A DNA stretch of 64,000 nucleotides from Candidatus Saccharimonadota bacterium (GTDB lineage Bacteria; Patescibacteriota; Saccharimonadia; Saccharimonadales; Saccharimonadaceae). How positions within the stretch are numbered: position 1 is the stretch's first letter; each line of letters opens with the position of its first letter. Below the pieces are notes generated by a model. The model was not told where the DNA came from and ran no database searches. It was given only the letters and a program-made list of their open reading frames with translations. The translations under genes were made by a program, and so were the position numbers. This document shows, one piece after another, positions 58,342 to 64,000 of this stretch. The stretch is from NCBI GenBank assembly GCA_027312165.1, contig DAICXN010000001.1, forward strand, positions 46,483-110,482, written 5' to 3'.

Positions 58342-59400
58342 TTAATTAGAAGTTTCTTCGGCTAGAGTGTAGGTGGCCTTCGCGGCACGCTTGAACTGAG
58401 GCTTGCTTTGAAGGTTGAGCAAGATAGTCGTCTCTTTGACCTGTCGGTTTTTCAAGACTCGTTTGACTATCTCTTCTCGGTGAAGGGGCTCGCCCGCCTT
58501 TTTTAAGACCTCGGTGATGATATCTGCCACTGTGCCGCGGCTGTAGCCCCAAGATTCAAGGGCGTAAATCCCGCGACCTATCAGGACGAATCGTTTGTCC
58601 TTAATCAGTTCGTTGTGGATTGCCTGAGTAGTTACGTCTTTTCGCTTAAAGTCACTCTCTTTGATAGCTTTGGCAATAGCGGAGAAGTGCATTGGCTTGC
58701 CTTTGTCTTCAAGGATGACGAAAATCTTGTCGCGAATATTCTTTGGGTTGACGGTTGGCCACTTGACAAGTCCCCAGTTACCTTTTAATTCAGCCAACTT
58801 TTTGCTAATACTAGCAAGTGCAGTGATATTGAGGGGATGCTCATACTTCATTGAGTTATGCATTTCCTCGGCAGTTATGGGCTGACCGTGATTTTTGATA
58901 AACTTAACGATTTCGGTGACCTGTCGCTTAACTTCTTTTTCATCGCCGATTGTGCCGATTACTGCTGCCTGATGAAAGTCGTCGTTTTCATTTATTGAGG
59001 TTATCGATGGTGCCAACTCGGCTATAAAGGCTACGTGAGATTTCTCGGTGGCTGATCCCGCCCTGCCAAGTAGATGAGATGTCAGATCCTGTATGCGAGC
59101 AGCTCGACCCATCTCAGATAGTTTTGAGGTAATTGTCTTCTCAAGAGCCACCGCAGAGGCAATTTTGCCTTCACTCATTGCCAGCCTGAGTCGAACCAAG
59201 ATTGCCTTTTCCAGCTGCCTAACACGCTCCCTTGTGATGCCGAGCATTTCACCAATGTGCTCAAGTGTTTCCTTGCGGTCATATAGGCCGAACCGTCGAC
59301 TAATGATTGTCTGCTCGCGTTCTTGGCTTATCTCGCCTAGAATATCTTTTACTGCATCTGTTAGATCGGTTGCTGTGTCAGTTTTTGCTGGCTGGCTCAT
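58342..59400 (-). CDS. Sigma-70 region-4-like HTH fused to HARE-HTH winged-helix domains
   Basis: REQTIISRRFGLYDRKETLEHIGEMLGITRERVRQLEKAIL (sigma4) then KIFVILEDKGKPMHFSAIAKAI...ALESWGY (HARE-HTH-like); ATG at 59400 or GTG at 59430. Confidence 0.8.
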   Translation of the reverse strand: MSQPAKTDTATDLTDAVKDILGEISQEREQTIISRRFGLYDRKETLEHIGEMLGITRERVRQLEKAILVRLRLAMSEGKIASAVALEKTITSKLSEMGRAARIQDLTSHLLGRAGSATEKSHVAFIAELAPSITSINENDDFHQAAVIGTIGDEKEVKRQVTEIVKFIKNHGQPITAEEMHNSMKYEHPLNITALASISKKLAELKGNWGLVKWPTVNPKNIRDKIFVILEDKGKPMHFSAIAKAIKESDFKRKDVTTQAIHNELIKDKRFVLIGRGIYALESWGYSRGTVADIITEVLKKAGEPLHREEIVKRVLKNRQVKETTILLNLQSKPQFKRAAKATYTLAEETSN

Positions 59401-59611
59401 GATTTTTGTGGATTTTCCTCTCTGCCTCACCTCAGGATTAGTGATTAATATAACTCAATATTCTTATTATACAACTAGCTAGATAAAAAGTCAACTGTAT
59501 AACTAAGCTATATAGATTATAGCACAAATTTTACTAAAATCACATACAGTGTCATGGGATATTTTTAGAGTTTAGAGTGTTTGGGGCAAAACAAATTTAG
59601 TGGCTGAGCGG

Positions 59612-62038: not shown

Positions 62039-62911
62039 CTAGCGAGTTGTCCACTGGTTTGCGCCTAGGGGTTTGACTAGCCCGTTAATCTCGAGCATGG
62101 TTAGAGCAGTAGCAAAGTCGCTGGCACTTAGTCCGGATTTTTGCTGTAGCTGCTCGCCGTCTCTAAGTCCTGAGGCAAGTAGTTCGAGTATGGTATTTTC
62201 AGCAGGATTGTCGCCGAGTGCTAGTTTCGTTTGGGTTGTGGCGCCGAGGATCAGTTCAGGGGCAATGACCTCTAGGATACTTTCGGCTGATACCGCCAGG
62301 TGTGCACCTTGAGCCAATAAAGAATTGCAACCCTCCGACAATGGACTCGTTATATTTCCGGGCACCGCAAAGACTTCCCTTCCTTGGTTAAGAGCATGAC
62401 CGACGGTATTTAATGTGCCACTTTTTGCGGCGGCTTCAGTGACCAAAACAGCATCCGAGACGCCGCTGACTAAACGGTTCCTTTCGAGGAAGCTCCATTT
62501 CCCGACCAGTTTGTCGTCCCCTTCTCCCCACTCTGACATTATTGCTCCGCCGTTCTCAACGATTCTTTTGGCGAGCCCTAGGTTGGATCGCGGTGAGATG
62601 TCGGGCAGAGCGTTGGTTACAACGGCGATGGTTTTTCCGCCCGCTTCAAGCGCAGCCTGGTGGGCGACAGCATCTATGCCAAGAGCCAGGCCGCTAACTA
62701 TTACTACGCCTCTTTTGGCTAGATCATAGGTCAGTCGTTGAGTTACCTCTATGCCGTATCGGGTGGGCTTGCGGCTACCAACCACCGCCACTACCGGTAG
62801 GCTCTCGTCGGGGAGTTGACCGATGTAATTAATTCTTTGTGGCGCATCAGAAATTTCGCCAAGTTTTCGGGTAAATGTGTGGTCTTCGGGACGAATTCTA
62901 TTGATTTTCAT
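62039..62911 (-). CDS. dprA: DNA processing protein DprA
   Basis: VAVVGSRKPTRYG, VVIVSGLALGIDAVAHQAALEAGGKTIAVV, NRLVSGVSDAVLVTEAAAKSGTLNT, VPGNITSPLSEGCNSLLAQGA. Confidence 0.95.
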   Translation of the reverse strand: MKINRIRPEDHTFTRKLGEISDAPQRINYIGQLPDESLPVVAVVGSRKPTRYGIEVTQRLTYDLAKRGVVIVSGLALGIDAVAHQAALEAGGKTIAVVTNALPDISPRSNLGLAKRIVENGGAIMSEWGEGDDKLVGKWSFLERNRLVSGVSDAVLVTEAAAKSGTLNTVGHALNQGREVFAVPGNITSPLSEGCNSLLAQGAHLAVSAESILEVIAPELILGATTQTKLALGDNPAENTILELLASGLRDGEQLQQKSGLSASDFATALTMLEINGLVKPLGANQWTTR

Positions 62912-62931
62912 GCAATTTATGTCCGAAACTA

Positions 62932-62960
62932 TTGACAATATGTCAAATGACTGCTATAAT
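62932..62960 (+). promoter_or_regulatory. Perfect consensus promoter TTGACA-17-TATAAT overlapping a palindrome
   Basis: TTGACA 62932-62937, TATAAT 62955-62960; TTGACA ATA TGTCAA palindrome. Confidence 0.85.
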
Positions 62961-62962
62961 GA

Positions 62963-63278
62963 TGCATGGTTGGTTGATCTGCGAGATCAACCAAATGCAC
63001 CTTATACCCCCTATTCTAACATTTTGTTAGGGTGTGTGCGACGGCAATAAGTATCTATACCCTCCACTTCTTGCATCAAACGTTCGCACGCATACTAATC
63101 CCTTTGACCCCTCGATTGGTTCTTAAGCCTGTCGAGGAGCCCGTTCAAGCATGGACTATCCAGTAGTGAGAGATCAGGCGCGCCGGTTGTAGATAACACC
63201 GCGATGACGCTTCCATGAGGGGTGGGTTGAAGGGTAAAAAAGCACCAGGTGATGCCCACCCTTACCTGGTGCTTTTTT
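62963..63278 (+). ncRNA. Candidate structured noncoding RNA, about 310 nt
   Basis: Follows a consensus promoter, begins with a 16-bp hairpin, ends in a strong intrinsic terminator, no ORF. Confidence 0.6.
63241..63278 (+). terminator. Intrinsic terminator
   Basis: AGCACCAGGT ... ACCTGGTGCTTTTTT, preceded by complementary A-run. Confidence 0.92.
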
Positions 63279-63356
63279 ATTTGAAAAACGCGTCAATAGT
63301 GTTAAGGTAGCAGTAGCGGAACTCGTGTACTTTATCGGCATCAAAGGAGGTGAGGA

Positions 63357-63512
63357 ATGACACCTGCGGTTAAGAAAGTGCTACTCGTGCTAGTAGTTAT
63401 CTACTTGGTCTTTCGCCTAGTTACCGATCCGGTCGGTTCGGCCGAATCAGTCAAGGTCGTTTTTGGCGCTTTCGAGTCACTGGGGGTATTCTTTGAGGCC
63501 CTCGCTACATAA
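63357..63512 (+). CDS. Small membrane protein, 51 aa
   Basis: MTPAVKKVLLVLVVIYLVFRLVTDPVGSAESVKVVFGAFESLGVFFEALAT; SD AAGGAGGTGAGGA; terminator follows; not in ORF track. Confidence 0.75.
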   Translation: MTPAVKKVLLVLVVIYLVFRLVTDPVGSAESVKVVFGAFESLGVFFEALAT

Positions 63513-63588: not shown

Positions 63589-63617
63589 TTGACAATAAAG
63601 CATCAACCTGCTATAAT
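63589..63617 (+). promoter_or_regulatory. Perfect consensus promoter TTGACA-17-TATAAT
   Basis: TTGACA 63589-63594, TATAAT 63612-63617. Confidence 0.85.
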
Positions 63618-63625
63618 AAAGATAT

Positions 63626-64000
63626 ATGACCACTATGGATTTTGATGAGATGCGATTGAAGCAGTGTCGTGACTTTGTCAGAGACTATTTCCGCCTAAGC
63701 TTGCCAGTTGATAGACTTCTTTTTGATGACATTGAGACCGGAGATGGGTCTTATTTGATGATATTTCAAGGCGGTGACTCGCCTTACGGGTTGTTTATAG
63801 CAGATGGTTCAAAAACTCAAACCTATGGCGACGTTAAAGAGATGGCCAAACAGGTTGGACTTACCGTTGAAAGCTGCTTTCCTCCTCGTGCCGATCAGCA
63901 ATATTTTAAGCGCGAAGGAGAGAAGTTGTTTCAGGCGGCCTTCCCTGCTCTGAAATCTTGGACCGAAGAGGACACCAAGTTTTATCAGCAGTTAGTTGAA
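63626..64000 (+). CDS. Hypothetical protein, partial (continues beyond window)
   Basis: Open frame MTTMDFDEMRLKQCRDFVRDYFRLSLPVDRLLFDDIETG... to window end; leaderless-type promoter. Confidence 0.75.
   Translation, partial: MTTMDFDEMRLKQCRDFVRDYFRLSLPVDRLLFDDIETGDGSYLMIFQGGDSPYGLFIADGSKTQTYGDVKEMAKQVGLTVESCFPPRADQQYFKREGEKLFQAAFPALKSWTEEDTKFYQQLVE

Follow-up and report, generated by a model that had tools for sequence, protein, structure and literature searches.

We identified, in the window (the whole stretch of 64,000 nucleotides that was analysed, from a genome of ~0.67 Mb belonging to the Saccharimonadales), a predicted RNA gene which almost certainly represents a real new RNA family, absent from Rfam, on genomic evidence only. 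As an overall explanation we propose a stand-alone Saccharimonadales RNA acting in trans on translation initiation through the loop of its P3 arm; we give this reading about an even chance, with both expression and mechanism being inferred. Large structured bacterial ncRNAs are a known kind of molecule; within the reach of the searches made, this family is new, as are its architecture and its occurrence throughout the order. No paper on a Saccharibacteria noncoding RNA was found in the literature searched. Saccharibacteria are tiny parasites living on other bacteria, with genomes of ~1 Mb or less and with many ribosome-assembly factors lost; cultured members exist (Nanosynbacter).

An Rfam cmscan, which the first-pass annotation had suggested as a check, returned no family match. 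At the gathering threshold, none of the 4227 families of Rfam 15 matched the window or five related loci of other subtypes. When the RNA locus was scanned at E<=5, nothing credible appeared, the best score (E=0.2, STnc320) reflecting a similar hairpin on the opposite strand. Of the identities left open earlier, among them a new family and a housekeeping RNA that had gone unrecognised, the one supported is a new family with a housekeeping-like distribution, as Rfam was negative and the stems covary.

The gene lies where it had been placed before, between dprA and a small membrane protein gene (ORF 63357-63512). Its setting is the following:

62932-63279, + strand: RNA gene including the promoter; predicted transcript ~62967-63280, ~315 nt
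62932-62960, + strand: promoter, with the -35 box TTGACA (62932-62937), a 17-nt spacer and the extended -10 TGCTATAAT (62952-62960)
62932-62946, no strand assigned: inverted repeat TTGAC-N5-GTCAA, spanning the -35 box of the RNA
62039-62912, - strand: dprA, outside the RNA and divergent from it, ATG at ~62912 (Pfam DNA_processg_A, E=1e-65)

The TTGACA-17-TATAAT promoter claimed for 62932-62960 proved exact. It is of sigma-70 type and matches the consensus at 12/12 bases, with the TG of the extended -10 also present, and the transcription start is predicted at ~62966-62968. Relatives retain the -35 box and a TGCTA -10. The inverted repeat was found in 83 of 120 promoters of relatives; it is possibly an operator, or else back-to-back -35 boxes shared with the divergent dprA, its function being inferred in either case. 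Among the loci having sufficient flank, dprA is divergent upstream in 102 of 107, with topA behind it, and the promoters of dprA and of the RNA, a few dozen bases apart, probably overlap. The downstream gene varies; pth is frequent there, on the opposite strand. At four loci (L083, L106, L108 and L119, examined as loci and not as whole genomes) the RNA persists with an intact core where the neighbouring dprA was deleted or replaced. Since the RNA has its own promoter and a 3′ hairpin/terminator, is kept where the neighbouring dprA is gone and is not followed by a fixed gene, we regard it as a stand-alone gene. That it is expressed is an inference, as all evidence is genomic and there are no expression data.

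Other features were observed in the same part of the window. The 51-aa small membrane ORF (63357-63512) has a strong Shine-Dalgarno sequence, AAAGGAGG, shows no Pfam match and is not a conserved neighbour of the RNA. A second exact TTGACA-17-TATAAT promoter was detected at 63589-63628; as 9 bases separate the end of its -10 box from the ATG of the next ORF (63626), the mRNA of that ORF is probably leaderless. At 58342-59430, a 362-aa protein carries sigma-70 region 4 and HARE-HTH domains, an unusual pairing.

The folding energy of the predicted RNA (~62967-63280) is -117 kcal/mol, that of dinucleotide shuffles -87 (z -5.7); with a few extra 5′ bases, z reaches -6.15. Over the versions folded, energies ranged from -117 to -122 kcal/mol compared with -87 to -90 for shuffles, and 0 of 100 shuffles equalled it. 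The remark that the region holds no ORF of note agrees with our reading, the internal ORFs being only 44-57 aa and conservation tracking the helices. From these predictions and comparisons, the RNA appears to be a noncoding, structured, stand-alone gene, with these elements:

62970-62994, + strand: P1, the 5′ hairpin, TTGGTTGATCT (62970-62980) with AGATCAACCAA (62984-62994), with compensatory A-U/G-C changes
62997-63015, + strand: conserved unpaired strand GCACCUUAUACCCCCUAUU
63016-63020 with 63026-63030, + strand: P2 local hairpin, strand A (CUAAC) with strand B (GUUAG), invariant core
63026-63030 with 63095-63099, + strand: P3 extension, strand B (GUUAG) with strand C (CUAAU), pairs changing clade by clade
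63033-63040 with 63085-63092, + strand: P3 outer stem, arms GTGTGTGCGA and TCGCACGCAT (up to 63032-63041/63084-63093)
63044-63052 with 63066-63074, + strand: P3 inner stem, its pairing anchored on the loop
63053-63065, + strand: P3 apical loop AUCUAUACCCUCC, with the anti-Shine-Dalgarno core CCUCC at 63061-63065
63100-63108 with 63226-63234, + strand: P4, long-range helix with nine base pairs, 5′ strand CCCUUUGAC with 3′ strand GUUGAAGGG
63109-63219, + strand: variable middle domain, closed by P4, with hairpins including 63110-63115/63132-63137
63220-63225, + strand: GGGUGG, directly before the P4 3′ strand and complementary to the P5 loop
63235-63279, + strand: P5, the 3′ hairpin and terminator, adjoining P4, with a near-invariant loop GAUGCCCACCCUU

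Compensatory changes among the aligned relatives back at least five helices: P1, P3, the P3 extension, P4 with its long-range pairing, and P5 at the 3′ end. Lack of stem conservation in relatives had been named as what would refute a structured RNA, and the compensatory changes in the helices pass that test. Of the 5′ hairpin proposed at 62963-62999, the P1 core stands and the outer TGCAT/ATGCA arm does not, as it is not conserved; because this arm begins at 62963, 3 nt past the -10 box, its 5′ half is probably untranscribed. Within the unpaired strand that follows P1, CCUUAUACCCCC is retained by 42 of the 69 loci in the model-derived set, and one large clade has CACCUAAAUAA in its place. The proposed pairing of GTGTGTGCGA with TCGCACGCAT was confirmed at 63032-63041/63084-63093, and the outer stem of P3 shows compensatory change at 10/10 pairs in 30 aligned 5′ halves. 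On every measure, the combined P1 and P3 structure outscored each of 500 shuffles, and it lay far above slid controls (30 sequences).

P4 and the P3 extension were missing from the first-pass annotation. All nine pairs of P4 are intact in 161 of 162 copies, with the compensatory classes GAC/GUC, GUC/GAC, CAC/GUG and GCC/GGC, and in another clade the helix reads CUCUAAC/GUUAGAG or CUAUAAC/GUUAUAG. The middle domain that it closes differs in length and sequence among clades, with ACGCUUC conserved near its 3′ end; the CCTCGA/TCGAGG stem noted before is present in it (63110-63115/63132-63137) as a lineage-specific helix. As for the strong terminator reported at 63241-63278, the hairpin and the U-run are there, and the extent has to be corrected to the longer 63235-63279. 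P5 shows compensatory change at 12/15 pairs, with 98.7% of cells paired, and its covariation too exceeds that of every shuffle and slid control. Its covariation lies on both sides of the U-run, including UA/CG and AU/CG/GC/UA on the far side, and some copies are without a proper U-run; for these two reasons we assign P5 to the RNA itself and not just to a terminator. The P5 loop, which reads GAUGCCCACCC or GGUGCCCACCC, hardly varies, and a pseudoknot with GGGUGG (GGGUGG/CCCACC) is possible from complementarity. Covariation is uninformative here, as the pairs are nearly invariant, and in the G009 clade GGUGGG is located elsewhere, inside another hairpin; hence, the pseudoknot is kept merely as a possibility. 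In outgroup families (L175, L176, L178, L025, L042, L090 and L092), we also observed an extra strong hairpin between the P4 3′ strand and P5.

The CTAACA/TGTTAG stem recognised before is present as well (63016-63021/63025-63030) and corresponds to P2. Its next outer pair is A-U in some main-lineage copies and U-A in others, given a long loop. The P3 extension is GUUAG/CUAAY, AUUGC/GCAAU, GUUGC/GCAAC or GUUAC/GUAAU, according to the clade. P2 and the P3 extension compete for strand B and are mutually exclusive. Strand B may thus switch between two folds, or the exchange may be a co-transcriptional folding step, a possibility inferred from the pairing and not shown.

The region was recovered by blastn in most close relatives. 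An exact pattern drawn from two conserved blocks matched about 111-112 contigs of a named genome collection. Nearly all of these are labelled Saccharibacteria/Saccharimonadia or are unnamed MAGs; a single match, in Antrihabitans, is evidently due to chance. Two covariance models were built, R1 for the 5′ half (149 positions) and R2 for the 3′ end (62 positions). Of 295 genomes of the class, R1 matched 156, R2 matched 201 and their union 247, with nearly always one copy per genome. In a sample of 380 genomes of the phylum, R1 had 25 matches, every one in the order Saccharimonadales. Strict filters were applied with R1, which misses diverged copies; hence, the absence of the RNA outside Saccharimonadales is likely but not proven. 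One contig titled Candidatus Nomurabacteria (L089, JAISBI010000013.1) has a clear Saccharimonadales dprA-RNA locus, and the contig matches genome G011, which is of the window's family; that label looks wrong.

The most constrained exposed element of the RNA is the P3 loop. Most clades have (U/C)UACCCUCC here, and a large clade of small genomes that includes G009 has UUACCUCC; UACCCUCC or UUACCUCC occurs in the great majority of copies, and the loop-closing stem varies (AAGU/ACUU and others). The 3′ tail of the 16S rRNA, as read in 7 genomes of 4 families, is GGAUUACCUCCUUU. This tail, to which Era and mRNA bind, has CCUCC in common with the loop, and in the G009 clade nine loop bases, AUUACCUCC, are identical to the tail of the order (as read in the 7 genomes, none of them from that clade). 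The commonest loop, UACCCUCC, has one C extra compared with the tail, and hence is an inexact copy in most clades, including that of the window; moreover, the 16S sequence is a free tail, whereas that of the RNA sits in a closed hairpin loop. A conserved unpaired anti-Shine-Dalgarno motif within a hairpin loop satisfies one criterion of sRNAs with anti-Shine-Dalgarno loops; for the other, pairing with the ribosome binding sites of mRNAs, no conserved target was predicted. In alphaproteobacteria, the CCUCCUCCC loops of the alpha-r14/NfeR1 sRNAs silence mRNAs, and likewise have a conserved motif in the loop and a variable stem (PMC10746234). However, NfeR1 is 123 nt long and comprises three hairpins, carrying CCUCCUCCC three times, compared with the one loop, the 300-nt scaffold and the long-range helices found here.

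We searched for fixed partners of the other conserved segments. An antisense action on one fixed target through the other conserved strand (CCUUAUACCCCC, GGGGGTATAAGG) was rejected and no conserved target was found, as the exact complement was met only at the RNA gene and in one stray copy across 21 genomes. The three C-rich motifs that are conserved showed no more complementarity to the rRNA locus than shuffles did, and a 12-nt match first taken for 23S falls outside any recognised 23S sequence.

In the mechanism that we propose, the RNA would be transcribed from its own sigma-70-type promoter, divergently from dprA, and would fold into P1, the long P3 arm with its extension, P4 closing the variable middle domain, and P5 beside P4 as terminator. 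Pairing of strand B with strand A, or with the near-identical strand C, may switch the fold during synthesis or on binding. The scaffold would display the P3 loop with its anti-Shine-Dalgarno core (a copy of the 16S tail in one clade), and the RNA might then pair with Shine-Dalgarno regions of mRNAs, or compete with the 16S tail for a partner. That this loop is the working part is held only tentatively, at somewhat under an even chance; its action on translation is inferred, with no interaction data. Counting against it, CCUCC is just five bases, and C-rich loops serve other purposes. Short-seed sRNAs also seldom maintain so constant a 300-nt scaffold.

Era binds the 16S 3′ tail (PMC9032327). 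Saccharimonadia almost entirely lack both Era and RbfA (PMC12641178), which makes a tail-like RNA more curious but does not count as evidence of a link. A role as Era decoy was rejected, as the class is nearly without era (PMC12641178, PMC10582724). It is unlikely, and offered as speculation, that the RNA is a 16S-tail mimic on a switchable scaffold which replaces part of the missing Era/RbfA control and governs 30S maturation or initiation throughout the order.

Perhaps the RNA is instead a housekeeping-type scaffold or protein-bound RNA, as may hold for raiA/ModT and OLE RNA, with the C-rich loops making protein or tertiary contacts and not serving as antisense seeds. We consider this possible but rather doubtful. 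The order-wide single copy, the long constant scaffold, the near-invariant 3′ loop and the possible pseudoknot would all suit it. The raiA/ModT RNA of Bacillota and Actinomycetota is likewise a structured, stand-alone RNA of 200-300 nt with a strong housekeeping promoter, pseudoknot(s), an added 3′ terminator hairpin and an adjoining competence gene, comFC there and dprA here (PMC11706538). The two differ in their helices and conserved motifs and in their neighbours (comFC/raiA vs dprA), and the new RNA was found only in Saccharimonadales. The raiA model (RF03072) was blank in 21 relatives, where its controls were silent too, and matched nothing at the locus in cmscan at E<=5; no partner protein is known. 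A competence link could also run through dprA itself, the RNA regulating the product of its neighbour or being bound by it. The near-constant divergent dprA and the overlapping promoters speak for such a DprA partner, which we hold to be quite improbable, since the core is intact at the four loci without a neighbouring dprA (the rest of those genomes being unsearched), and topA and pth are also frequent neighbours, so that the association may be plain synteny. A 5′ or 3′ UTR acting in cis on an adjacent mRNA is scarcely credible: the position between two genes would allow it, but the RNA has its own promoter, its 3′ hairpin/terminator and a divergent upstream gene, and the downstream gene varies and, when conserved, is mostly on the opposite strand.

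The 6S RNA, which had been suggested as a candidate, is likewise a housekeeping-type ncRNA with no ORF, and a functional counterpart of it binding RNA polymerase would fit the strong promoter and the housekeeping distribution; besides, hardly any Saccharibacteria are picked up by the Rfam 6S model. Even so, we judge this just as improbable as a DprA partner. No 6S match was obtained at the locus at E<=5, and the fold is multi-domain, with P4 and the middle domain, unlike the single rod with central bubble of 6S. Among 21 relatives, the 6S model (RF00013) scored in just one, and there at another locus, next to the RNase P RNA (rnpB). That lone match (L013, G014:C51:16563-16716, minus strand) has 32 bits, below the cut-off, and sits a few hundred bases from the RNase P RNA; it is possibly a diverged 6S of Saccharimonadales. 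It is very improbable that one of the known housekeeping RNAs (SRP RNA, tmRNA or RNase P RNA) is present here in a diverged form. The first-pass annotation had already been unable to match the hallmarks of any of the three, and none of their families matched; the genome has its true RNase P RNA and tmRNA at other positions, G000:C33:9459-9799 and G000:C33:12616-12999, respectively. This contig holds RNase P RNA, tmRNA and 16S rRNA all within 20 kb. The SRP RNA of the group remains unaccounted for, as the small bacterial model (RF00169) matched 0 of 21 relatives; yet no SRP S-domain motif is visible in the RNA, and no SRP family scores on it at E<=5 (the large model having been run on the locus only). 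The small SRP model was silent in these relatives (G000-G020) although RNase P RNA was found in 19 of them; their SRP RNA may have diverged strongly or belong to another type.

Since almost all genomes of the order retain this 300-nt RNA, it probably matters to these reduced bacteria; being missing from Rfam, it is presumably unannotated in the genomes concerned. Should the anti-Shine-Dalgarno loop prove to be the working part, the RNA would be unusual, among those acting at the Shine-Dalgarno step, in its size and constancy.
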